IMG/VR virus record: IMGVR_UViG_3300043331_000313
Location: 1 to 42,418 of that record
DNA length: 42,418 nucleotides
From: a virus
Reading direction: 5' to 3' (one strand)
Part shown: in pieces, positions 98 to 42,418 of the stretch
Position numbering within the stretch: the stretch's first letter is position 1
Layout: every line of letters starts with the position of its first letter
Notes under the pieces: model-generated
Databases searched by the model: none
What the model saw: only the letters and a program-made list of their open reading frames with translations
Told to the model about the DNA's origin: nothing
Translations under genes and position numbers: made by a program

Positions 98-337
98 CAC
101 ACGGGCCAAACCTTCGATCCAATTCGGAGAGCCAAGCGGACGCATCACGTCTTGGTCCAGCGCCGCCGCGATGGCTTTGGCTTTCGACGCCGTTTCGGGG
201 AACACCATCGGGTCCGCCGCGGGCTCCACAGACGTCAAATCCATAGCGCCCGGCGCGCCGATCAACCCAGGCCCACGTCCTGACAGGTCGAGCATGCGGC
301 GGGGCGGCGCCATGCCAGCGCCAGTGCGTCCAGCCAT
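1..337 (-). CDS. Putative DNA-ejection/internal virion protein, N-terminal part (gene crosses contig junction)
   Basis: This is the first 112 codons or so of a 397-residue protein that starts at ATG 337 and continues, after the circle is closed, at 42321 down to the stop at 41465. The ATG overlaps the stop of the upstream PAPS-reductase-like gene by one base (TGATG). The N-terminus is rich in Gly, Pro and Ala with no signal peptide. The remainder is charged and predicted helical. It lies between a probable ejection protein and a 767-residue virion protein, which suggests an internal virion or ejection role. I recognise no catalytic motif. Confidence 0.8.
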   Translation of the reverse strand, partial: MAGRTGAGMAPPRRMLDLSGRGPGLIGAPGAMDLTSVEPAADPMVFPETASKAKAIAAALDQDVMRPLGSPNWIEGLARVGESYFRTKAAMEGEQDRLDTEANERQQEQARR

Positions 338-1041
338 CAGATCAGCCCCGCCATTGGGCGCAACGCCTCAGCCGTCACAGCGGCGATCTCACGCAGCTTT
401 CCATGCACCACCGCGTATTTGTCGGGGTGATGGTCGCGCATATAATTCAGCTGATTGTCCTTCACGTCGAGAAACGCGGTGCAGTTCCAGCAATCGAGCG
501 AGGATTTCGTGTGGGCGTAGTACGCGGGAATTTCTACGCCGCGCGCTTTCAAGAAAGCGAACACCTCGTCCTCACTCCACCCTTGCAGCGGAAACACATA
601 TTCGATGCCGTCGAGCGTCATCCCATCGCGCACCGGCGACTTGTACGCCTCGCTGTTACGCTGACCGCGAATGATGCGGGTGATGCCTCGCTCCACCATC
701 GCGTTATGCAGCGGACGCCAGAAATTCGCCGCGCAGCATTCGTTCCAGCCGCGAAGCAACGGGCCTTGTGTGCTCATGCAGGCTTTGCCGATCGCGCTCT
801 GCGCAACAGGCAGCACATCGACCGGCCAGCCGTGCTCAGCGATGTCGCTCAACACATCGGTCCGCACCTCCAGGAAGTGCGGAACCTCGGCGGACACGCG
901 CGCCATCAAATCGAGCGTTTCTGGAAACGCCGCCCCAGTGTTGAGCCACACCACCAGAATTTCATCTAGCTCGGGGCGCATGACCTCCAGCACCGCCAAG
1001 CTGTCCTTGCCGCCGCCGAATTGAAGCGCTGTGGTGAGCAT
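337..1041 (-). CDS. PAPS reductase / adenine-nucleotide alpha-hydrolase family protein
   Basis: A 234-residue PP-loop ATPase-like protein. The nucleotide-binding PP-loop FGGGKDS lies at residues 8-14. The body matches the phosphoadenosine phosphosulfate reductase fold, with VVWLNTGAAFPET following the loop and an arginine-containing IIRGQRNSE segment. Cysteines occur in GKACMS, NECCAA and LDCWNC, so a metal or Fe-S site is possible. Members reduce PAPS or activate sulfur or nucleotides; phage members are largely uncharacterised. Start ATG 1041 overlaps the previous stop (TAATG) and the stop overlaps the next start. A metabolic enzyme translationally coupled to virion genes on both sides is odd. 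Assimilatory sulfate reduction is only one possibility; nucleic-acid sulfur modification is another. Confidence 0.85.
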   Translation of the reverse strand: MLTTALQFGGGKDSLAVLEVMRPELDEILVVWLNTGAAFPETLDLMARVSAEVPHFLEVRTDVLSDIAEHGWPVDVLPVAQSAIGKACMSTQGPLLRGWNECCAANFWRPLHNAMVERGITRIIRGQRNSEAYKSPVRDGMTLDGIEYVFPLQGWSEDEVFAFLKARGVEIPAYYAHTKSSLDCWNCTAFLDVKDNQLNYMRDHHPDKYAVVHGKLREIAAVTAEALRPMAGLI

Positions 1042-2042
1042 TAGAACACCATGAGCGCCGTACCGGCGAGGCCCGCCACCGCGCCGCCGGTCGAAGCGTT
1101 CGCCGCCCCCTGGGCGTTTGCCGCGTTCACAGCTTGCCCATAGTTCGATTGCACCAAGCCGGAATAATCAGTCGGCGCCACCCGCGTCGCCGCCGCTTGG
1201 CCGGGATTGATCGGCGTGGTTTGTACGCCAGACATCAACGCAATGATCTCGTTCAGCGGGTTTTGCCGGTCCGCGAGGTCCGCCGTGGTGTCGAAGCCGT
1301 ACTGCCGCTCAGCATCACCCAAATTCGTGTCGCGCTGCGTCAGTAGCTCCGCAAGCGACTGTCCACGCCCCGCCACGTCCTGCGCGAAGCCTTGACCAAG
1401 CTCACTTGTAGCTTGTGCGCGCTGGCGCGTGGCGTTGTCATCGGCGGCGAGCAAGGCCCTAGCAAAAGCGTCACCCTTGCCGGTGTTGAAGCTCTCCATC
1501 TCAGAGCCGAACGCTTCCGTGCCGGCGTTGACGCCTTGATTGGCGAGGCGCGTGCGCAGCGATTCTTCGGAACGATCAAACTCCGCGTCCAACCCTTGCG
1601 TCGCCAGGTCAAACGAACGCTGCCGCACATCGTCGCCAAAATTCCCCAGCGTTGAGGGATCGTACTTCGAGGCGTCGAAATCACCGCCCAGCGCGTCGGC
1701 CAGATTCAACGGCCCGCCCGTTGCTGCGTTCACGTCGAACCGGCGCGACTCGTAGGGCTTTGACAAAAGATCGGTGACGCGATCGGTCTGCGAAATGCCC
1801 AACTCGCCCAGCTTTTGGCCCTGGGTCTGCGACAATTCCCGAAGCCGCTTTTCCTCCGGGCTTTCCGTGACGGTCTGCGTCCAGCGGTCGCCTTGGTTGT
1901 TGTACGTCACAGAGCCGTACGGCGTGACCTGGTTGACGCGATTGAGCTCAGCTTCCGTGCGCGCGGTCTTCTCGTTCATCGCCGTTTGCGCGTTGGCGGT
2001 GGTGACGGGATCAGGCGGCGTGGGCGCTTTGGGCGAAGACAT
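1041..2042 (-). CDS. Putative DNA-ejection / internal virion protein
   Basis: 333 residues. The N-terminus is proline-rich (SSPKAPTPPDP), followed by a threonine/asparagine-rich stretch with VNQVTPYGSVTYN, a pattern common near the start of podovirus internal virion and tail proteins. The middle is a long polar helical region. The end is a short Gly/Ala-rich hydrophobic tail (GGAVAGLAGTALMVF) that could insert into a membrane. It begins inside the last 32 bases of the GNAT gene and is followed by the PAPS-reductase-like gene. The ejection role is inferred from position and composition, not from a diagnostic motif. Confidence 0.65.
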   Translation of the reverse strand: MSSPKAPTPPDPVTTANAQTAMNEKTARTEAELNRVNQVTPYGSVTYNNQGDRWTQTVTESPEEKRLRELSQTQGQKLGELGISQTDRVTDLLSKPYESRRFDVNAATGGPLNLADALGGDFDASKYDPSTLGNFGDDVRQRSFDLATQGLDAEFDRSEESLRTRLANQGVNAGTEAFGSEMESFNTGKGDAFARALLAADDNATRQRAQATSELGQGFAQDVAGRGQSLAELLTQRDTNLGDAERQYGFDTTADLADRQNPLNEIIALMSGVQTTPINPGQAAATRVAPTDYSGLVQSNYGQAVNAANAQGAANASTGGAVAGLAGTALMVF

Positions 2043-2463
2043 CGGTGTAATGTTCCCAGTGGAATTTGCGGCTGATCACGACATCCTCGGAGCCGTAATG
2101 GTGAGACAGGATCGCCTCAGGCTGGAAGCCAAGGCCCCAGACGAATTTGAGCGCCCGGCGATTGCTGCGCGGCGTCGCGCTCCAGAGCTTGTGACACCCG
2201 CACGTATTGAAGCCGTAATCGAACATCGCATCCACGGCCTTGCGTGCACGCAGCCAGCGCGGATCGGACGCGGCGGCGCTCACCTGGATCGTGCCGTGAT
2301 CCGGCTGCCATTGGTGAAACACCACCACGCCAAGCACGTTGTCGCGGTCATCCGCGATCCCGATGGCGCGGGCATCGTCGGCAAACTGGCGCCCGTACAT
2401 GCCGGGCATGTGCTCCACCGCCCATTGGGTGAGGTCTGCGGATCGGTCGAGAATGACCCTCAC
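2011..2463 (-). CDS. GNAT-family N-acetyltransferase
   Basis: 150 residues with the layout of a GNAT fold. An N-terminal half ends in the strand NVLGVVVFHQW. A central segment GTIQVSAAASDPRWLRARKAV is followed by helix AMFDYGFNTCGCHKLWSAT. The segment PRSNRRALKFVWGLGFQPEA matches the N-x2-A-x3-hydrophobic-LGF pattern typical of the acetyl-CoA-binding C-terminal half. Substrate is unknown. It overlaps the stabilisation-protein stop by 4 bases (ATGA), so it is expressed with head-tail genes. Stand-alone GNAT proteins at this position occur in other podovirus-like genomes, suggesting modification of a virion or host target. Confidence 0.8.
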   Translation of the reverse strand: MRVILDRSADLTQWAVEHMPGMYGRQFADDARAIGIADDRDNVLGVVVFHQWQPDHGTIQVSAAASDPRWLRARKAVDAMFDYGFNTCGCHKLWSATPRSNRRALKFVWGLGFQPEAILSHHYGSEDVVISRKFHWEHYTDVFAQSAHAA

Positions 2464-4028
2464 CTTTGCCCGCCCATCTCGTAGCGCAGATTGATCCCGT
2501 TTAGCGCAAAGGCGCTTTGATTGGATCGCGCTTCCATCACAATCGACACAGCATAGCCCTCACCCGACACCGCGCGCCATTGCCGCGTCGTCGTGTCCTC
2601 GCCGCCCCACAGATTCGTGCCCCAAATCCCCGAGCCCCATACAAGCGCGTTGGTGATGGTCGAGAACGGCCAAGGCGGCAGCGGGGGCGCATCGGAGTAA
2701 TCCACGCGGCCCACCATCCGCACCGCCGCGCGCGTTGATGTCGTCAACACCGGACGCGCCTCCATGAGCGTCTTCACATTGCCCGGCGCCTGCAACACGG
2801 TCCAAGCCGTATCGAGCCGCGCCGTGATGTCCTCGCCGTCATCGCTCGAACTGTTGAAGCACAGATGCACACCGCCATCGGAAGCCCCCGCATAGAGCGC
2901 GCCGCCGAACACCTCGAACGTCTCGAAATCCCAGCCGGTGAAGCGGCCCCAGGCTCCGTTGATGCGGCTGCGCACGAACTGCACCGCCGTTTCCGTGCCG
3001 GATGGCGCATTGATCAGCACCAAATCCTCGGAGGGGATGAACACGCCTTCCCAACCATCAAATCCCTGCCCAGACGTGGCCGCGAGCCGGAACGGCGTGG
3101 AAATCACTGCGCTGAGATACGGAATCGCATCTGGCGAATTGCCGGCGGACATGATCTGCAACACCGACACAAGGCCGTTGCGGGTGATCACGCCAAGATC
3201 AGCGCCCAAATCCACCAAGGGGCGGTCACCGATCGGCTCGCCCACATACCAGCGGCCCACCAAGGCCCACTCATCCGCGTCGCCGGGATTGAGCCCCGCA
3301 TAAACCGCGATCTCACCCTCACTCGTCAGCGCGACGAAATAATCATCGAGCCCGGCGCCGCCATCCTTGGACAGCGAGCCCAGAGCGATAAGCCGGCCGC
3401 CATAGCCAAACACCGCGCCCAACGGGAAATTCGCCACCGTGCCGGCGATGCTCTGCACCGGCAGGTATCCCATCGTCAGCGTGTTCTTGAAGATGAAGAA
3501 CAGCCGCTCCTTGAACTCACAGACATAGGAAATGTCGTTGTCGGTGTAGGTCGTGATCGATAGCGAGGGCGTGGCCCAGGCGCTGCCGTTCCAGTGGCGC
3601 GGATCGTCCAGGCCGTTGCAAATCCACAGAAACGAGCCGCCTGACGTGGTGATGTTGGTGTGGCTGAAGCGTGCGTTGGTCAGGCTCGACACCACAGCCG
3701 CGCCGACAGAGCCCGGCGTGGTGACGTTGAATATGCTGTCCCCGGCAGCGGCGAACAGCGTGGACGAGCCGCCGGCATTGTACGCCATCAGCGTTTCAAC
3801 CGGGTCGGTGATGCCCGTCACATGCTCCGTGTAGCCGGCGCGCATCTCCAGCGCGACGCCGCGCGTGACCCAATTGTCGAACGTGCGCGCGCGGGTTTGC
3901 GGCAGCTCTGCAACTGGCGTTTCAGTATCCCATCCCTGCGTCGGCGCGGGCAACAACGTCGAACGCCCGCGCGCCAGGGGAACATTGTTCCTGCGGGTGC
4001 GGACCGTTGACGCCAGCGCTTGTCTCAC
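2460..4028 (-). CDS. P22 gp10-like packaged-DNA stabilisation / tail accessory protein
   Basis: 522 residues. The central part has the repeated beta-propeller-like pattern of gp10-type proteins: DDYFVALTSEGEIAVYAG, a Trp-rich strand WALVGRWYVGEPIG, and LGVITRNGLVSVLQ, near residues 230-300. These proteins sit below the portal and close the head after packaging. It follows the gp4-like adaptor with an ATGA overlap, the same order as in P22. The first 35 residues are basic and polar. I see no enzymatic motif. The assignment rests on the pattern plus gene order. Confidence 0.8.
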   Translation of the reverse strand: MRQALASTVRTRRNNVPLARGRSTLLPAPTQGWDTETPVAELPQTRARTFDNWVTRGVALEMRAGYTEHVTGITDPVETLMAYNAGGSSTLFAAAGDSIFNVTTPGSVGAAVVSSLTNARFSHTNITTSGGSFLWICNGLDDPRHWNGSAWATPSLSITTYTDNDISYVCEFKERLFFIFKNTLTMGYLPVQSIAGTVANFPLGAVFGYGGRLIALGSLSKDGGAGLDDYFVALTSEGEIAVYAGLNPGDADEWALVGRWYVGEPIGDRPLVDLGADLGVITRNGLVSVLQIMSAGNSPDAIPYLSAVISTPFRLAATSGQGFDGWEGVFIPSEDLVLINAPSGTETAVQFVRSRINGAWGRFTGWDFETFEVFGGALYAGASDGGVHLCFNSSSDDGEDITARLDTAWTVLQAPGNVKTLMEARPVLTTSTRAAVRMVGRVDYSDAPPLPPWPFSTITNALVWGSGIWGTNLWGGEDTTTRQWRAVSGEGYAVSIVMEARSNQSAFALNGINLRYEMGGQR

Positions 4029-23468: not shown

Positions 23469-23934
23469 AGACAGAGAAGCGATACGCGATCTTATTGGGC
23501 GCGTGGAAAAAGCGAGCGGGCCGGATCGGGAGATCGATGCGCGGGTTGCGCTGCTCTGCGGCGAGATCGAACTCAGACAAACTAATCAGGGCCATTACTT
23601 TAGTCTGCGGCGTTCTGATGAATCGTATTCCTTTGCGTCAGGCTGCGGCGACAAAGACTTGGCGATCAAGGTGCTGGCCTCGTGTAGCGCCTCGCTGCTT
23701 TCTTACACCGCCGACCTCAACGCCGTCATCGCTCTTATAGAGCGGAAGCTGCGGGGCTCGCTGTGGTGTGTCGGCGACATGGAAGATGGCACTTTCGCGC
23801 GCATCATTACGCCGAATAAGCGCGGCGATTACGTGGGGCAGCAAGAGCATTTCGCAACATCTGAACCCCCCGCTCTCGCGCTCTTACTCGCATTTCTCCG
23901 CGCCCTTTCCCAGGAGCCCACCCATGACAGATGA
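23461..23934 (+). CDS. Paralogous phage accessory protein, copy 1
   Basis: 157 residues from ATG 23461 with AGGAG upstream. N-terminal AIRDLIGRVEKASGPDREID, central YTADLNAVIALIERKL, and C-terminal PPALALLLAFLRAL match a family of small phage proteins of unknown function found in many temperate phages. A second copy lies at 24776-25243. The N-terminal and central blocks are nearly identical at DNA level between copies, but the stretches between differ, suggesting recent gene conversion or mosaic duplication. Confidence 0.78.
   Translation: MSEDREAIRDLIGRVEKASGPDREIDARVALLCGEIELRQTNQGHYFSLRRSDESYSFASGCGDKDLAIKVLASCSASLLSYTADLNAVIALIERKLRGSLWCVGDMEDGTFARIITPNKRGDYVGQQEHFATSEPPALALLLAFLRALSQEPTHDR
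23485..23519 (+). repeat. 35-bp direct repeat, copy A1
   Basis: Identical to 24806-24840. It encodes the conserved RDLIGRVEKASG block of the paralogous accessory proteins. Confidence 0.9.
23706..23752 (+). repeat. 47-bp direct repeat, copy B1
   Basis: Identical to 25009-25055. It encodes the TADLNAVIALIERKL block. Perfect identity over synonymous positions indicates recent exchange between the two copies. Confidence 0.9.
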
Positions 23935-24786: not shown

Positions 24787-25243
24787 AGCGCAGAGCGAAG
24801 CCCTCCGCGATCTTATTGGGCGCGTGGAAAAAGCGAGCGGCGCGGATCGGGAGCTCGATGCGCGCTTGGATTTCGCGATGAACCGCGTCCCGATCTATTG
24901 GGGTCGCGGCGATGACTTCGGGCTCAGCACGCCGGAATATGTTGACGCATGGACCGATGCTGAATGGTGCGAAGCGGGCCGCACGCTTTCAAGCACCCAT
25001 CCACACTTCACCGCCGACCTCAACGCCGTCATCGCTCTTATAGAGCGGAAGCTGCCGGGGTGGTCTGTGCAGCTATGCCAAAACCGTCCCGCCAAACCTG
25101 GGCGCGAATGGAGCGCGTGGTTGGAGCCTCCATCAACGGCCAACATCGATAAGGACGTTGACCTTGAGGCGGTGAAAGACACCCCCGCACTCGCCCTCTT
25201 ACTCGCCTTCCTCCGGGCTTATGAACAGGAAGCAGGATCATGA
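24776..25243 (+). CDS. Paralogous phage accessory protein, copy 2
   Basis: 155 residues. It shares ALRDLIGRVEKASGADRELD, FTADLNAVIALIERKL and TPALALLLAFLRAY with the product of 23461-23934; the region between is unrelated (DFAMNRVPIYWGRGDDFGLS). Same unknown-function family. It overlaps the next gene by 4 bases (ATGA) and ends in QEAGS, as does the next protein. Confidence 0.78.
   Translation: MKLEAQSEALRDLIGRVEKASGADRELDARLDFAMNRVPIYWGRGDDFGLSTPEYVDAWTDAEWCEAGRTLSSTHPHFTADLNAVIALIERKLPGWSVQLCQNRPAKPGREWSAWLEPPSTANIDKDVDLEAVKDTPALALLLAFLRAYEQEAGS
24806..24840 (+). repeat. 35-bp direct repeat, copy A2
   Basis: Identical to 23485-23519. Confidence 0.9.
25009..25055 (+). repeat. 47-bp direct repeat, copy B2
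   Basis: Identical to 23706-23752. Confidence 0.9.
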
Positions 25244-34640: not shown

Positions 34641-35476
34641 TGGGCAGCCTCCAGCGCGGCGATGCGCGCTTCCAATGCCGCGATCTGCGCCTGCAAGCCC
34701 TGCGCATTCGGAGAGCCGATGCGAATATCGCTGGCGAAGTAGATCGGCCACGGCGAGCGCGAGTAGATCGTCCAGCCCGTTGTCGGCGCGGTCCCGCTGG
34801 GCTGGTTGATGTAGATCAGATAGCCTTCACCGATCGTGCCGGCATTGACCCAATTGATCCGCACGCCGTACGCATACGGGATCGTGCCGCTGTTGTTCAT
34901 CGTCACGCGCGTGATGACGCCGCTGTCGATGAGCCCGTTATTCGAGATGACGAAATGGCCCGCGCTGGGGTCGCTCATGCGCCCGCCGCTGCGATTGCCG
35001 GTTTCGCCGTAAATCCCGGCCCCGCCCCAGATGCCGACACCGCCTGACGGGCGATAGTTCAGCAGCAGGCCAGCGGTCCCGCGCCCATCGACAACGTGGC
35101 CCCCGCCATACTGACGCACCGATCCGAACACGCCGTTCGAGAACGCTTCATTGCCGTCGCCGTAATTCAGCGTCTGGCCGGTGAAGCCATAGATCGCTTC
35201 GGTGATGTCGCCATCGCCCATGTGGTAGGCGTAGGACGATGCTGCGGAGAGCTTTTTGACGTCCGCGTCGGTTTCGACATTGAGATTGAGCAGCAGGCCG
35301 CGGAAGTCCGCCAGCGACGTCGAGGGCGGGTTGATCGTGAGCGTGCGCAGGTCAAAAGGCTGCTGCCCGGCGGCTGTTTCCGTGCCGGTCGCAACTGTCG
35401 TGTCAACAGGAAGCGTCTGCGCCGACGCCAGCGGCGCCCATGCCAGAGCGAGCGTGAGAAGAACGATCCGCATCAT
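34637..35476 (-). CDS. Fibre-like protein with a Sec signal peptide
   Basis: 279 residues from ATG 35476 (ATGA overlap; ATG 35473 also possible). Residues 2-20 form a textbook signal peptide, MMRIVLLTLALAWAPLASAQ, with ASA cleavage. The mature part is Gly/Asn-rich beta sequence (YGGGHVVDGRGTAGLLLNYR; GGAGIYGETGNRSGGRM) and ends in a short heptad helix (QIAALEARIAALEAAQ), as tail-fibre tips do. A fibre made with an export signal is unusual, because virion parts assemble in the cytoplasm. Confidence 0.75.
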   Translation of the reverse strand: MMRIVLLTLALAWAPLASAQTLPVDTTVATGTETAAGQQPFDLRTLTINPPSTSLADFRGLLLNLNVETDADVKKLSAASSYAYHMGDGDITEAIYGFTGQTLNYGDGNEAFSNGVFGSVRQYGGGHVVDGRGTAGLLLNYRPSGGVGIWGGAGIYGETGNRSGGRMSDPSAGHFVISNNGLIDSGVITRVTMNNSGTIPYAYGVRINWVNAGTIGEGYLIYINQPSGTAPTTGWTIYSRSPWPIYFASDIRIGSPNAQGLQAQIAALEARIAALEAAQ

Positions 35477-36435
35477 GTGATGCCATCCCCCGAGATCAGC
35501 CACGAGTCCGTGGTGTATTCTTCTATAAAGGCTGTTCCGAACTGCGCCAGGGTACGGGTTCCCGTCCCGAGCGTGCGGTGCCTCAGTGTCACGCCAGAGT
35601 CGGGGACAATGGTCATGGCTGAAGCATTGATGTTGAGCACACGGAAGACTGCGTGAAAACCGTTCGTCGCCCACGCCACGGAGCTTTCCGGCGGAATGGT
35701 GCAAGACAGCGAGGTGCCGTTAAACCGGATTCGCTTGCCAATATCCGTTAGGGCGAGGATGTAATTAGCTGTCTTCGCCTCTTGGGGAATGCCAATCGTG
35801 CCGGCAGATCGGGGCGTAGTCGGCGCGCTGGAAGCAAGGATCAGCTCCCCCGTCATCGTGTCGCCGGCCTTCGCCACAGCGCCCATTGAGGTGCGCGCGG
35901 TGGAGCCGCTTTCAGCGACCCACGTGGAGCCGTTGCCGACGATGAAGTTGCCGTCCGTGACGGCCAATCCAGCGATTGCGGCCAGCAGCGCGCTATACGC
36001 CTGAACGTCAGTGCCGATCACCAAGCCAAGCGAGGTTCGGTCCTCCGATGCGGTCGCGTTTGTCAGAAGCGTGCGCCCAAGCCCTGAGCTGGCCAATGCG
36101 GCGAGGGAGGTGGAGCTGGTCCAGTAGAACATGTCGCCGTTGACTGGGCTGATGCCGGCGAGGGCTGCAAGCTGTGCGTCCGCGTCCTGCTTGAGCACAA
36201 GCTGCTCGTAGCGAACAGAATGCCCATTCGCAGAGCCGGCGCCCAAGCCAGTGAGAATGAACCCCGCCATTGGCTGATTGGCGGCGAACGGCTTTGTGCC
36301 CTGCGTGTTAATCGATGCGGTGAGCGCCGACGCAATGTCGTTCATCTCCGCGTTGAAATCGTCCGCCTGGGCGACATCGCCGTTGTTCGGCGGCGTCACT
36401 GTGCGCGTGAAATCGCCACTGCCGTCACGAGGCAT
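35473..36435 (-). CDS. Tail fibre protein
   Basis: 320 residues from ATG 36435, with AAGAGG upstream; ATG 36474 lies inside the previous gene. The start MPRDGSGDFTRTVTPPNNGD, then DDFNAEMNDIASALTASINT and GTKPFAANQPMAGFILTGLG, is typical of phage tail-fibre N-termini that attach to the virion. The middle is Ala/Ser/Gly-rich. The end (GTRTLAQFGTAFIEEYTTDS) has the beta-type tip seen in other fibres. It overlaps the ART-containing gene by 11 bases. Confidence 0.85.
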   Translation of the reverse strand: MPRDGSGDFTRTVTPPNNGDVAQADDFNAEMNDIASALTASINTQGTKPFAANQPMAGFILTGLGAGSANGHSVRYEQLVLKQDADAQLAALAGISPVNGDMFYWTSSTSLAALASSGLGRTLLTNATASEDRTSLGLVIGTDVQAYSALLAAIAGLAVTDGNFIVGNGSTWVAESGSTARTSMGAVAKAGDTMTGELILASSAPTTPRSAGTIGIPQEAKTANYILALTDIGKRIRFNGTSLSCTIPPESSVAWATNGFHAVFRVLNINASAMTIVPDSGVTLRHRTLGTGTRTLAQFGTAFIEEYTTDSWLISGDGIT

Positions 36436-38248
36436 TGTTTGGCTTCCTCTTGTTGTGATTGGTGGCGGCTGCAATTCCGCCTGCGATGCCGATCGGCGCT
36501 ATCCCCGCCAGCAGATCGTTGCTGTCTCTGTTCTTTGGGTCGAAGCGGGCGAAGCGGGAGCGGACGTTGGCGGGGTCGAAGATGACGTTGAAGTCGGACT
36601 GTTCGTCCCGAATGCCGGTGTAGCCGCGCTCTTGCAGCTTTGCGTGCGCCAGTGCTTGCACCTCGGATCGCGTCTGATCCGGAGCGCGCAATTCCTTTTG
36701 CGCCTGTCGCAGCGCTTGCTGATATTCTGTCACCGGCGCGAGACGCCCGCGCGCGACTAGGGGCATGATGTTTCCGCCGGCCTCGCCAAAAGGCATGCGC
36801 GTGAAATCGATCGGTACAGATCGGTCGCCGATTTGCGTTCGCACGCCATCGCGTGACGGTGTGCCCGCATAAGATGCCGCGGTCTCCGGAGTCGTGCCCA
36901 CATAAACGCCCGGCCCATTGGCGCCAGAGCCGGATGGGCGCATCGCGCCAGCCACGTCGCGCTGTGTCCCGTGATACAGCGGCGTATCGACATCAAACCC
37001 CATCTCCCGCGCGCGCGCCATGCGTGACGCTTCGTCCATTGGGAGATCGTCAGCACGGCCCCTCACGGGCAAATAATATGACGGCGGACCTGATCCATAA
37101 GCGTCCGCCGCGCGATAGCCTCTGCGAGAAAGAACGCCGGGCAGAAAATCGTTGATGACGTTTTCGACGTAAACGCCGTCAAAACCGCCCGAACGCGCTT
37201 GGTCCTCCACCGCGTTCATCAACGCGCGAAAACCACCTCCGCCGGTGCCGCGCTCGTTAATCGGGAGACTGCGTGTAGAGCCGCTATCGTCTGCGCGCTT
37301 TACAGACGATATCTCAAGCGCTCGCTGGCGGCGACCGCCGATCATCGCCCCTTCATTTTTTCGCAGATAGACGGAGTACCCACCGGTATTGACCCACGCA
37401 TCCCTGCGGGGCGACGACAAAAATTCGAAGATTGGCTGCGTATCAACCACGCCGGCGCGAGAGCCGGCGTCCCCGCGCAATAATTGCCGTAGTTGCGACT
37501 GCGTTGCGCCGGGTGTGCCATAGCTTGCGCGGTCGGCAGCTATAAGCCGGCGCACTAGAGCGCGCTGCTCATCGGAGCCGCGACCAGAGCGGACCCACCG
37601 CACTAGGGTCATGGCTTGGTCTTCCGACATGCCGATTTGCGCGGCAATGTCTGGCGCTGACGGAGCATCAGTTCGCCCCCAACTCGCCGCCTCAGCCAAA
37701 TCACCGCTCCCGCCCACAAGGCTTTGGCGAAACTCCTGACGCGGGCGGATCGGTAAGCCGCCAGGGCCGATCTCGCGCGCCGGGTTGGGAAGGCGCGGCG
37801 GCGCTTCCAGCACCTCGGCGGCAGCACGCGGTGCGGCGCCACGAAGCGTCGGCGCAATCATGCCGCTTAGCCCCAGCGCGGCCATGCTGCCTTCCAGCGC
37901 CGCTGTCGGCGCATCGCCATAGCCTGCCGCACGCACGGCACGGCGCACGCTGGGCAACCCCGTGGTTTCAAGCACGTCTTGACCTAGCTGCTCGACATGC
38001 GTTGGCCGGCCATAGGGGATGCGCGGGTCGGAAAGCTCACGCCCCTGCGCATACATGCCCATGCCGCGCTGCTGGTTCTCACGGCGCTCGTTCGCCCGCG
38101 CTTCGTTTTGAGCTTGACGACGCACGCCGGCATTGTCGTCCCGCAGCCGCTCCGTCAGTGGCCGCATGCTCCGCGCGCGTCGGCGCGGCGCGTCGTAGCG
38201 ATAATCTTGCAGCGAAAATTGGCCTATTCCGCGCACGCGGTCGTTCAT
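36425..38248 (-). CDS. Multidomain virion protein with GNAT-like and ADP-ribosyltransferase-like domains
   Basis: 607 residues. Basic N-terminus (about 1-90), a membrane-like helix region near 115-135, then a GNAT-like segment near 275-395 (GTGGGGFRALMNAVEDQARS; DGVYVENVINDFLPGVLSRR; RRGYRA). Residues about 405-590 match the ART domain of phage polyvalent proteins: YHGT with His426, a Gly-rich GVYVGTTPETAASYAG, and the ending NVIFDPANVRSRFARFDPKN. Such proteins are carried in the virion or injected and modify host targets. Its start codon faces a plus-strand gene 14 bases away. Activity is not proven. Confidence 0.8.
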   Translation of the reverse strand: MNDRVRGIGQFSLQDYRYDAPRRRARSMRPLTERLRDDNAGVRRQAQNEARANERRENQQRGMGMYAQGRELSDPRIPYGRPTHVEQLGQDVLETTGLPSVRRAVRAAGYGDAPTAALEGSMAALGLSGMIAPTLRGAAPRAAAEVLEAPPRLPNPAREIGPGGLPIRPRQEFRQSLVGGSGDLAEAASWGRTDAPSAPDIAAQIGMSEDQAMTLVRWVRSGRGSDEQRALVRRLIAADRASYGTPGATQSQLRQLLRGDAGSRAGVVDTQPIFEFLSSPRRDAWVNTGGYSVYLRKNEGAMIGGRRQRALEISSVKRADDSGSTRSLPINERGTGGGGFRALMNAVEDQARSGGFDGVYVENVINDFLPGVLSRRGYRAADAYGSGPPSYYLPVRGRADDLPMDEASRMARAREMGFDVDTPLYHGTQRDVAGAMRPSGSGANGPGVYVGTTPETAASYAGTPSRDGVRTQIGDRSVPIDFTRMPFGEAGGNIMPLVARGRLAPVTEYQQALRQAQKELRAPDQTRSEVQALAHAKLQERGYTGIRDEQSDFNVIFDPANVRSRFARFDPKNRDSNDLLAGIAPIGIAGGIAAATNHNKRKPNNAS

Positions 38249-38250
38249 GT

Positions 38251-38256
38251 TACGCT
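38251..38256 (+). promoter_or_regulatory. Putative leaderless -10 for 38263 gene
   Basis: TACGCT lies exactly 6 bases before ATG 38263 and is preceded by TG at -1 spacing, like the element before 39089. No clear -35 is visible. Confidence 0.45.
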
Positions 38257-38262
38257 TTGCCC

Positions 38263-38517
38263 ATGAAGCGCTTCGTCCTCACCTCTCTCGCAATCGTTCT
38301 TGGCGTCGGCCTTGGCGTCGGCGCGGTCAATCTGCTCGCTGTGGGTTTGGCCCATGCCGAGCACGCGCGGCTGAACCCGGATCGGGCTTATGAGCCGCCC
38401 CTGGACGTGCATCTCGCCAGGACGCGCTATGTCTGCGATCCCGAAGAACGAAAGCTCGACCTGGTTGTCACGACCCAATCCGGCGACGTCTGGCTGAAGA
38501 CGCTGCGCGACTGCTGA
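38263..38517 (+). CDS. Small membrane-anchored or secreted protein, opposite to late operon
   Basis: 84 residues. One hydrophobic N-terminal segment (FVLTSLAIVLGVGLGVGAVN, then LLAVGLAHA) is either an anchor or an uncleaved signal. The extracytoplasmic part contains two cysteines (YVCDPEERK; LRDC) that could pair. It fills the 271-base gap between two minus-strand late genes exactly, which argues it is real. There is no ribosome site; the -10-like element suggests a leaderless transcript. A lysogen-expressed 'moron' is one reading. Confidence 0.72.
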   Translation: MKRFVLTSLAIVLGVGLGVGAVNLLAVGLAHAEHARLNPDRAYEPPLDVHLARTRYVCDPEERKLDLVVTTQSGDVWLKTLRDC

Positions 38518-38519
38518 GA

Positions 38520-39074
38520 TCATCGCCGCCACAGCTTCCGCTTGGGCGGCGCATCTGCCGGCTGTCGTGGCGCAAGCAGCGCGCCCGTCGCCGGGTTGTA
38601 TGCATAGCTCTGATCTTCTGACGGCGGGGCCGGGCTCATATCCGGCCCATGGGCCAGCACGTCAGCGATGGACACAGTGTTGAGATAGCGCTGCGGCTCT
38701 TGCGCGCTCCACACCCCGGCTTGCTGCTCACGTCGCAATTCGTTGGCCGGCGCAACCCAGCCCGGCATGGGCGCGTAGGGATTGGCTTGCAGGAACTCTG
38801 AGGCCGACGATGCGCGCCGCGCTGCCGCGGGATCGCTGAGCCCAGCGCCGCGGGGCGTAAACTCCCGCACTCTTGGCGCGCGGGTGAGCGTTGGAGCCAT
38901 GTCGCGTTCACGGATCACGCCCGGCAAGCCGCGTTGGGCTTCGAGAGCGAAGAACTCATTCGGCGGCGCGGCGCGAAGCTGGCGACGATCCAGCGACAAG
39001 CGGTTGGGGTTGCGTGGAAGCGGGTTGGGCAATTCAACGACTTGACGCCAGAGGTCCTCAACCGTCTCGGCCAT
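38520..39074 (-). CDS. Proline/arginine-rich virion-module protein
   Basis: 184 residues, soluble, Pro/Arg/Ala-rich, probably disordered. The opening AETVEDLWRQVVELPNPLPR is helical; the rest is low in conserved features. Near the end it has YAYNPATGALLAPRQP, resembling RLRYNPATGQIE at the end of the 397-residue ejection-module protein. It lies among virion genes and its start codon faces a plus-strand gene 14 bases away. No ribosome site beyond GGGG is seen. Confidence 0.65.
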   Translation of the reverse strand: MAETVEDLWRQVVELPNPLPRNPNRLSLDRRQLRAAPPNEFFALEAQRGLPGVIRERDMAPTLTRAPRVREFTPRGAGLSDPAAARRASSASEFLQANPYAPMPGWVAPANELRREQQAGVWSAQEPQRYLNTVSIADVLAHGPDMSPAPPSEDQSYAYNPATGALLAPRQPADAPPKRKLWRR

Positions 39075-39361: not shown

Positions 39362-41468
39362 GCCAACGCACGAACGCAGGGTTGGTCAGCGCCTCGCCAG
39401 AGATCGCCATCGTCGCCAGCAAGCCCAGCGTCGGCCCTGCCGTTGCGGGATTGAGCAAGCCTGCACCGATGCCGACATTCTGCACATTGATGCCAGAGCG
39501 CGACGCATTCGCCATGCGCTCGACGCCCTTCTGATAGCCCGCGACCTGGGCCAAATTATCAAGCGCTGCCGCCAATTCGCCGTCGCCTTGACTGAACAAA
39601 ATGCGCCGACCTTCCTTTGAAAGCCGCGCATAGTTTGAAACGAAATTGTCCACGCTGAACGCGCCCGGCTCCAATACCGCAGGATTTCCAGGATTGGGTT
39701 TGCCCAGATCATCAATGACCGTCGCGGCGACCTCGCGCCATTCGTCGGGCTTAAGCGAGCGGCGGAGAGATTGGAGCGCACGCGCATTCTCGCGCCCGCC
39801 TTCCTGCGCCAGCGCCACGATGCGGCGATACGCTTGCGCACCGCCGCCTTGCGCGAAAGGCTGCAAGGCATTTTTGATGCGCTGCTGTCCCGCGCGATAG
39901 TATTGATCGACGCGGCGCAGCTGCTGCGCGGCCACGTCGCCGCCGATCGCTGACGCGGATGCGAAAATGTCGTCCGTAAGCGCCGCCTCAAGGCGTTGCA
40001 GCGAAGCATCGTCAATGGTCTGACGCAGTTGCGGATTGCGCTGCGCCTCGCGAACCCACGTGCGCAGGGCGCGAAGATCATTGAACCGCATGGCGCCGCG
40101 ATCTGCTTCCAGCGCCCCTGCGATTTTCCCGAGCAGGGGATCATTGACAAGATCGGCCACATTCGGCGCGGCCACGCGGGAGCGAATGGCGTTAAGCGCC
40201 GCTTCAGTTGATTGCGTCGTAACTTGTGATCCGACGCCGCCGTTCAGCAATGCGGACTCGTCGCGCGCAATGGTGGAGAAAACCCGATCGTAGAGTGCGT
40301 TTGCCTTCGCCGCGAAGCTCCAATCTCGTGTCGGCGTTGAAGCGGCAGGGCCTGGAGGCGGCGACACGCTGCGGTCACGCGCGAACCGATTGACGCCGCG
40401 CTGGATGCTTTCGCCCACCTGCTCACGCGGGCCGTGCTGCCCAAAATCAGCTGAGATGCGCGCCGCCGCGTCGCGTGTGTCGTCCAGCGAGTTTTGCAGA
40501 GCGCGCCGAACGCGCCCGCCGGCGATGAAGTTTTCGCCAACAAGCTTGGACATGCCCGCCGACGCACCGCCCTGGATCGCGGCAAGGTTTGGCCGCACGC
40601 CGGCTTGCTCGAATTGCTGTGCTCTTTGAACCGACCGTGAGGGCAGGTTCATCAAACGCGGAACCGCATTTGCAACAGACTGAAGCGCCCCTGCCGTGCT
40701 GGCGCCAGCCAACGTGTCCGCAATCGTGCTGGGCAGCCGCTCTTGCAGTGTGTCGCCTTCCGCGCGCGCCATGGCTGGCGGCGCGGTCAAGCCAGCGCCA
40801 AGCTGCGCCGCGCCTCTTGCCGTGCGGATGCCAGACGCAGCCACCGGAGCCGCTACGTTCACCGCCGACGCCGCACCGCGTTCATTGGCTTCTCGCGCTG
40901 CGCTCATCACGCCGCCTTGGTCGCCAGACAGACGCGCGCGCTCCAAATCTACTTGCGCCGCCTCTTCATCGACAAAAGGCCCGTAGGTGATTTCGCGCGC
41001 GATCTGTGGGAGGTTTTGCGCGATCTGCTCCGGAAGCTGCGGAAGGTTGGCGACGCCCTCGCTGATCCGCTCCCCAGTCTGCGAGGCAATCTCGCCCAAA
41101 TCGGTTGGCGATTGTGCGGACCTGGACAGGAAGCCGATAAGGCCAGTCGCGTCAGCGCCAAGCTGCATGCGGCGATCTGGATCGAGCAAAGCCCCGATGC
41201 CGGGAACGCCGCCCAAGCCATGGGGCAGCGACGCCATTTGCATCCTGCGCCGATTGTCAGCGGTGCGCTCAGCCTGCCCCTGCAAGGCGTCCAGAGCCAC
41301 CGTGTCCGTTTTCTGGCCCTTGCCGCGCGTAGGTGCGCCGAGATTGCTCCCGCCGCGCACGGAACGCCGTGGCGCGCCAAATCGCGCTTGCATGGCGCTC
41401 GCCATGACCTCGCGCGGCGTGCCGTCCGGAAACTCGATTTCCTCGCCGTTCGGCCCGACGACGATCAT
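39165..41468 (-). CDS. Large virion/ejection protein
   Basis: 767 residues. The N-terminus (IEFPDGTPREVMASAMQARF) is a short motif found at the start of many phage internal virion proteins. Residues about 190-260 are Ala/Gly-rich with mild hydrophobic segments. The remaining 450 residues are long charged helices, e.g. DLRALRTWVREAQRNPQLRQ. No lysozyme or protease motif is seen. Size and location next to two other helical proteins fit a DNA-ejection protein that forms the channel across the periplasm. Confidence 0.75.
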   Translation of the reverse strand: MIVVGPNGEEIEFPDGTPREVMASAMQARFGAPRRSVRGGSNLGAPTRGKGQKTDTVALDALQGQAERTADNRRRMQMASLPHGLGGVPGIGALLDPDRRMQLGADATGLIGFLSRSAQSPTDLGEIASQTGERISEGVANLPQLPEQIAQNLPQIAREITYGPFVDEEAAQVDLERARLSGDQGGVMSAAREANERGAASAVNVAAPVAASGIRTARGAAQLGAGLTAPPAMARAEGDTLQERLPSTIADTLAGASTAGALQSVANAVPRLMNLPSRSVQRAQQFEQAGVRPNLAAIQGGASAGMSKLVGENFIAGGRVRRALQNSLDDTRDAAARISADFGQHGPREQVGESIQRGVNRFARDRSVSPPPGPAASTPTRDWSFAAKANALYDRVFSTIARDESALLNGGVGSQVTTQSTEAALNAIRSRVAAPNVADLVNDPLLGKIAGALEADRGAMRFNDLRALRTWVREAQRNPQLRQTIDDASLQRLEAALTDDIFASASAIGGDVAAQQLRRVDQYYRAGQQRIKNALQPFAQGGGAQAYRRIVALAQEGGRENARALQSLRRSLKPDEWREVAATVIDDLGKPNPGNPAVLEPGAFSVDNFVSNYARLSKEGRRILFSQGDGELAAALDNLAQVAGYQKGVERMANASRSGINVQNVGIGAGLLNPATAGPTLGLLATMAISGEALTNPAFVRWLTSASRSGNVAGLRRATQELAQLAARDPALIPAYQSLVQALQSERPDGGSSRPGYTQQSDTGRLQ

Positions 41469-42418
41469 TCGATCTGGCCCGTCGCCGGGTTGTAGCGCAG
41501 GCGTGACGGCGCGCCGCCGCCTTGCGGTTGTTGCTGGACGCCGCCGCCCATTTCCTCACGCGCCGCGCGCACCGCTGTTTGCGTGCGTTGAAGCTGTGAG
41601 CGCACCGATCGGACGGCAGATTGCACCTGACGCGTGCTTTGCGCAGTGTCGAGACTGCGCATCGTGTTGCCGAGAAGCTCAAGCTCTCGAACGGCGATCG
41701 AGCCCAGAGCGCCGCCCGTTTCGGAGTTGCGCCGCATCTCCGCCAACGTCTCAAAGCTCAAAATCGCACGCACCGGCTCCAGCGCCTGATCCAAATCCCT
41801 CGCCGCCGTGCCGCCAACGCCGCGGAGCGCCTGGCCCACGCCGCCGGTCGAATCCCAACTGATTAGGCCCTCGGCCTCATTGAGCGCGTCCACCGCGTTT
41901 TGAAGCGACCGCTCGGACGACTCCAACCGCCCCGCTTGCGCACGCCCTGCGTCATTGGCGCGAATATCCGCTGGCCCGCCGGGAATGGCTTCAAGGTTGC
42001 CGTCGCCAGTGAAGCGATAGCCGGAGGGCGGCGCGCTCATGCCTGGGCTACGTTGCGAAGCCGCAAACGGCAGGGTGCGGCGGGCCTCGTCCACGGACTG
42101 ATCAACGCGAACGTCGCCCACCTCGCGTTGTTCGCGCACGCGGAGCGGGATCAACGATTCCGCCTGCGCCAACTCATCCGCCATGCCGCGCTCACGCTGG
42201 AAGTCATCGAACCGCATCTGCGCGGCTTGCTCGGGTGCTGCGGATGACAGCGCGCCAATCATCGCGTTTAGGCGCTCATCGGGCGCACCGCCCGTCACTT
42301 GCGACGCCTGCGTCAACGCCGCGCGGCGGGCTTGCTCCTGCTGCCGCTCGTTCGCTTCTGTATCGAGCCGGTCCTGCTCGCCTTCCATCGCCGCCTTGGT
42401 GCGGAAATAGGACTCGCC
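41465..42418 (-). CDS. Putative DNA-ejection/internal virion protein, C-terminal part (gene crosses contig junction)
   Basis: Continuation of the gene starting at 337; the codons in 42322-42418 repeat those in 1-97. Charged helices (RFDDFQRERGMADELAQAES; RSLDTAQSTRQVQSAVRSVR) dominate, with a Gly/Gln-rich linker and an ending RLRYNPATGQIE similar to a motif in the 184-residue protein at 38520-39074. It overlaps the 767-residue gene by 4 bases (ATGA). Probably an internal virion or ejection protein. Confidence 0.8.
   Translation of the reverse strand, partial: GESYFRTKAAMEGEQDRLDTEANERQQEQARRAALTQASQVTGGAPDERLNAMIGALSSAAPEQAAQMRFDDFQRERGMADELAQAESLIPLRVREQREVGDVRVDQSVDEARRTLPFAASQRSPGMSAPPSGYRFTGDGNLEAIPGGPADIRANDAGRAQAGRLESSERSLQNAVDALNEAEGLISWDSTGGVGQALRGVGGTAARDLDQALEPVRAILSFETLAEMRRNSETGGALGSIAVRELELLGNTMRSLDTAQSTRQVQSAVRSVRSQLQRTQTAVRAAREEMGGGVQQQPQGGGAPSRLRYNPATGQIE
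42322..42418. repeat. Terminal direct repeat, right copy
   Basis: Identical to 1-97. See the left copy. Confidence 0.93.

Follow-up and report, generated by a model that had tools for sequence, protein, structure and literature searches.

The late block of this phage genome encodes a protein in which a GNAT-like domain precedes an ADP-ribosyltransferase (ART) domain. The protein is a divergent representative of the polyvalent proteins, a known class predicted to be injected: two or more disparate domains (GNAT and ART) lie in one phage protein, and the gene is placed in the virion/injection module. Most probably the protein is an enzyme delivered into the host to modify a target there. The initial annotation had called the pairing of two transferase folds unusual, a description refuted both by the literature and by further examples. 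According to Iyer et al. (2017), this GNAT "typically has" an ART as neighbour in polyvalent proteins, in the same polypeptide (PMC5512222), so that the pairing has been known since 2017, and it is repeated in general terms in PMC7824862. GNAT also precedes ART in one protein in four related contigs (L009, L045, L053 and L074).

The gene and its setting in the late block

The window analyzed here is the whole stretch of 42,418 nucleotides of IMG/VR record IMGVR_UViG_3300043331_000313. The record is complete, and it is circular because a 97-base direct repeat recurs at both of its ends (1-97 and 42322-42418). The portal is similar to those of Bradyrhizobium phage ppBjS10J-1, Myxococcus phages Mx8/Mx9, Ruegeria phage 45A6 and Rhizobium phage RHph_I3_18, and judged by this protein the structure module is of the Mx8/45A6 podovirus type discussed in PMC10386132. 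Elsewhere in the window, two stretches about 1.3 kb apart (23473-23756 and 24794-25059) are repeated at 90-98% identity, which suggests a duplicated gene segment. A gene of the PAPS-reductase family (337-1041, minus strand; phrog_424) lies within the structural block, and its product weakly resembles the defence protein SspD. The product of 2460-4028 (minus strand) matches the phrog_5107 'amidase' over its full length, yet its gene is at the tail-tube-B position; a member of the same family directly follows the ART gene in contig L041 (6568-8100), and the 'amidase' label may be wrong.

The GNAT-ART ORF is real and was found on the minus strand, a detail missing from the initial annotation, which had correctly located the gene between an injection-protein homologue and a tail-fibre gene (Table 1). 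The upstream product is homologous to the 'ejection protein' of Pseudanabaena phage Pan3 and to the 'putative injection protein' of Rhizobium phage RHph_Y1_10, and its gene is preceded by an ejection-type ORF (41465-42388) that runs across the record ends with an open frame of 407 codons. Adjoining the GNAT-ART gene, within the minus-strand late block, a plus-strand ORF of 84 amino acids (38263-38517) has a signal-peptide-like start (MKRFVLTSLAIVLGVGLGVGAVNLLAVGLAHA) and matches no PHROG family; this ORF is possibly a moron. The minus-strand ORF 38245-38532 is doubtful as a gene, and the plus-strand ORF overlapping it looks better. No relative with the whole GNAT-ART architecture was found in IMG/VR, GTDB genomes, plasmids or phage records.

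Table 1 Coordinates of the GNAT-ART gene, its parts and neighbours, and of related proteins with differing middle domains
Feature	Position	Strand	Remarks
GNAT-ART protein, 607 aa	36425..38248	-	ATG at 38248
N-terminal region, residues 1-261	37466..38248	-	
GNAT-like domain, residues 275-395 (fold ~267-395)	37064..37426	-	
Putative acetyl-CoA loop region RGTGGGGFRALM, residues 333-344	37217..37252	-	glycine-rich, atypical compared with Q/RxxGxG/A
Conserved lead-in DLPMDEASRMARAREMGFD, residues 401-419	36992..37048	-	helix preceding first ART strand
ART-PolyVal domain with lead-in, residues 401-575	36524..37048	-	
His426, strand 1	36971..36973	-	candidate NAD-binding/catalytic residue
Tyr449, strand 2	36902..36904	-	
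Asp558	36575..36577	-	candidate third catalytic residue, just past predicted strand 553-556
Conserved C-terminal motif DPANVRSRFARFDPKN, residues 558-573	36530..36577	-	
Upstream gene, 767 aa	39165..41468	-	homologue of annotated phage ejection/injection proteins
Tail-fibre gene	35473..36474	-	downstream
Near-identical proteins, middle domain differing (GNAT, ART-like, others) between constant flanks	L045 2269-3906; L048 2571-4244; L049 5023-6621; L043 5026-6621		
Near-identical proteins, middle domain differing (GNAT, ART-like, others) between constant flanks	L053 3056-4657; L074 1206-2690; L001 2752-4230		

In the related phage ppBjS10J-1 the capsid and tail genes are followed by a GNAT, a structural gene and two genes at the ejection-protein position, with a tail-fibre-like gene directly after these; this order is partly our own reading of proteins annotated only as hypothetical. 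No GNAT-ART gene was present at the equivalent position. Because of this absence, packaging cannot be assumed, and gene-order comparison indicates that the GNAT-ART gene is an accessory insertion or cargo and not a core part of the virion. The separate GNAT gene pointed out in the initial annotation (2011-2463, minus strand) was borne out by an Acetyltransf_1 match above cutoff and by its assignment to phrog_4470; since ppBjS10J-1 also has a GNAT at the same place, this gene looks conserved in the lineage.

That the related phage lacks the gene between its ejection and tail-fibre genes speaks for a serious rival, in which the protein would be an unpackaged accessory enzyme synthesised within an infected or lysogenic cell, the product of a moron or superinfection-exclusion gene acting on host or rival-phage targets, with the late block serving as a cargo insertion site. 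The small ORF with a signal-peptide-like start on the opposite strand beside the gene likewise suggests an accessory insertion site. The same reading would also fit residues 1-261, in which no homologue and no recognised delivery domain or signal was found, and in none of 46 proteins examined was a common N-terminal hydrophobic delivery segment significant compared with shuffles. Possibly this N-terminal region serves packaging or delivery. Against an unpackaged enzyme, the ART relatives lie repeatedly among head, portal or tail genes of unrelated phages, as expected if they are delivered (they adjoin portal, major head, head-closure, virion-structural, terminase or tail-fibre genes), and some form part of proteins of 1,100-3,800 amino acids. 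We regard the unpackaged enzyme as unlikely, serious rival though it is.

The C-terminal ADP-ribosyltransferase domain

Residues ~400-575 can be firmly assigned, from profile matches and a predicted structure, to the ART-PolyVal (PF18760) ADP-ribosyltransferase fold, as the initial annotation had proposed for this block. Relatives were gathered by IMG/VR scans and aligned (n = 43), and one row from an annotated phage record was left out of the structure-prediction input. The PF18760 model matched residues 424-564 of the full protein with 20 bits (E 0.0012) and the isolated window domain with 23.3 bits (E 1.2e-4), both sub-threshold (cutoff 31.2); it matched 41 of the 43 aligned family members, with a best E of 3e-17. 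An AlphaFold2 (AF2) model of residues 398-597 had a mean pLDDT of 82 and a pTM of 0.76. Foldseek with this model returned 35 viral matches at E<=1e-3 (BFVD, E down to 1e-12), many of them named ART-PolyVal. The top viral match and one lower were named N-acetyltransferase domain-containing proteins, and many others ART-PolyVal or PolyVal ADP-ribosyltransferase; because two matches to the ART model bear N-acetyltransferase names, GNAT/ART fusions appear to be in public databases already. The best five matches of the PDB fold search were all the tankyrase-2 PARP domain and were weak (E 0.4-3.6), and a sequence-only PDB search of the domain found no ART. The fold search that the initial annotation had proposed as a check thus recovered an ART/PARP-like fold.

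His426 within YHGT and the C-terminal DPANVRSRFARFDPKN were found where the initial annotation had placed them. The predicted structure puts His426 in strand 1 and Tyr449 in strand 2, and Asp558 sits two residues past the predicted strand 553-556; the ART-PolyVal pattern has H in strand 1, Y in strand 2 and D in strand 5. Histidine occupies the first of these columns in 41 of 43 sequences and aspartate the third in 38 of 43, while the second holds tyrosine in 23, tryptophan in 13 and phenylalanine in five. Within the C-terminal motif P559, R563, A567, F569, D570 and P571 are invariant (43/43). The lead-in SRMARAREMGF belonged to the search pattern, so its conservation is partly circular; the C-terminal ARFDP was not in the pattern. 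An H-Y-E active site had been expected, and it is rejected on the conservation of Asp558 together with the published signature: H-Y-E was the wrong test for this ART because Iyer et al. (2017) describe H-Y-D for the Tox-ART-HYD2 clade (PMC5512222). His426, Tyr449 and Asp558 are accordingly named here as candidate catalytic residues from the alignment.

The substrate of such a domain could also be a nucleic acid or a small molecule instead of a protein. ADP-ribosyltransferases as a class are known to modify both besides proteins (PMC7955679), and no target is known for this family member. Iyer et al., on the other hand, group the Tox-ART-HYD2 clade with protein-modifying ARTs (PMC5512222), and we consider a non-protein target quite improbable.

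The GNAT-like domain and exchange of front domains in relatives

Residues ~267-395 very likely have a GNAT fold, assigned less firmly than the ART fold; the GNAT-like block of the initial annotation therefore stands, with weaker support. Pfam GNAT models gave no match to the window domain. JP1_085, a standalone 122-residue protein of Agrobacterium phage JP1 annotated as an acetyltransferase, aligns over residues 275-400 with 36-38% identity (E 4e-11 to 3e-12) and is the only clear relative found; it matches Pfam Acetyltransf_1 with an E of 0.064. A two-sequence profile of the window domain and JP1_085, run against the six frames of 397 whole genomes, gave five matches at E<=1e-3, and all five have plain GNAT motifs. 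No further homologues came from two protein scans of IMG/VR or from a DNA pattern scan, and the GNAT subfamily of the window protein is, judged from these searches, rare. When three of the five genome matches were built into a GNAT profile, the window domain scored 20.2 bits, higher than any of 2,000 shuffles (8.4 bits); this result was not counted because those three sequences had been chosen with the window profile and a small independent GNAT profile without them missed the window domain.

The AF2 model of the GNAT part was poor (pLDDT 56), with the order strand-strand-strand-loop-helix-strand-helix expected of a GNAT. In the fold search proposed by the initial annotation, essentially all of the 50 PDB matches listed for this model, whose pLDDT was only 56, were GNATs; the best E was 5e-3, and probabilities reached 0.99. 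The top match of a sequence-only PDB search was an acetyltransferase and was not significant (E 0.54).

The loop RGTGGGGF reads as R-x-x-G-x-G in one register, and a helix-anchored alignment places T first and F last. By sequence alignment the motif-B tyrosine usual in GNATs is leucine in both the window protein and JP1_085. Because the loop is unusual and this tyrosine is apparently replaced, acetyltransferase activity is taken as putative. The same two features, a loop that is not a clean Q/RxxGxG/A and the leucine, would be expected if one domain were catalytically dead, with the GNAT-like part degenerated to a module for recognition and the ART alone active, or the reverse. We judge this somewhat unlikely: the window protein keeps a glycine-rich loop, JP1_085 retains R-x-x-G in its loop and shares the FLPGVLxRRGY motif, a conservation suggestive of selected function, and the ART candidate residues are well conserved.

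Among close relatives the domain before the ART is exchanged (GNAT, a second ART or another domain), which looks like a cassette slot when their sequences are compared. Between the genes of L045 (GNAT) and L048 (a second ART-like domain), DNA identity is 91% as far as gene position 482 and 93% from position 841 onwards, and the stretch from 483 to 840 gives no match. The front domain of L048 is ART-like, with YHGG, and this protein contains two PF18760 stretches. In L074 (GNAT) and gp6 of Octadecabacter DB virus 2 (a different domain), residues 1-153 are shared at 95%, and the ART flanks are likewise in common; within this pair the middle of the ART is variable, and the lead-in and C-terminal ARFDP are constant. 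We tentatively suggest, as a possibility falling somewhat short of probable, that late-block ART proteins contain a true exchange slot in which the front domain is swapped between long constant flanks, and the ART body between its two conserved motifs, and the delivered payload varies as in a polymorphic toxin, the window GNAT being one such payload. The window protein has no close relative in which such a swap could show, only a lower G+C in its GNAT part (59% versus 64-68% in the flanks), which is compatible, weakly, with acquisition. In the relatives, the exchange slot offers natural sets of near-identical proteins differing only in payload.

Proposed function and relation to known systems

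Of the readings considered, we lean modestly towards a late-expressed, packaged protein that is delivered with the DNA, its ART ADP-ribosylating a host target and its GNAT acylating or recognising it. A delivered host-modifying enzyme is favoured because both folds are present and the gene lies in the virion block. The initial annotation had reached a similar view; the two folds, the virion-block position and the published prediction for the class (PMC5512222, PMC7824862) uphold it. Two of its points, the unusual pairing and the expected H-Y-E signature, do not stand. The model builds on the ORF, the ART fold, the less firm GNAT fold, the conserved candidate residues and the position of the gene. 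From that position, the protein would be associated with the virion and enter the cell: it would be made late together with the virion genes, packaged, and then delivered with the DNA. The C-terminal ART-PolyVal domain would move ADP-ribose from NAD+ to a host macromolecule via His426, Tyr449 and Asp558, and the GNAT-like domain would acylate the target or aid its recognition. Takeover of the cell would be favoured or its defence blunted as a result.

Injection with DNA is the published model for polyvalent ART and GNAT domains, with T4 Alt as the worked ART example (PMC5512222), and the phiKMV-type GNAT Rac is an example of acetylation of host RNA polymerase (PMC7824862). The class has been predicted since 2017, and the literature searched contained no GNAT-ART member with a demonstrated target; a tractable cultured relative would allow the class prediction to be tested. 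If delivered and active, the window protein would parallel T4 Alt in a podovirus-type phage, bringing two different modifying activities into the cell as infection begins.

The domain resembles ART-PolyVal (PF18760; Tox-ART-HYD2, PMC5512222) in its fold, H-Y-D residues, lead-in and C-terminal motifs and virion-block location; it departs from the norm in that the window domain alone falls under the Pfam cutoff and has about 30-45% identity to its nearest relatives over the domain. Like the polyvalent GNATs of Iyer et al. (2017), who describe two GNAT families, the window GNAT is joined in a single phage protein to an ART-PolyVal domain, which it precedes; unlike them, it is of a rare subfamily, and its only clear relative found is the standalone JP1_085. 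As with phage T4 Alt, the proposal is that a phage ART comes in with the DNA and acts on a host target, whereas Alt is of the R-S-E clade, has known packaging and has no GNAT described (PMC5512222). Rac of phiKMV-like phages is likewise a phage GNAT and acts on a host protein, but it acetylates the RNA polymerase alpha subunit and is not described as ART-fused or packaged (PMC7824862).
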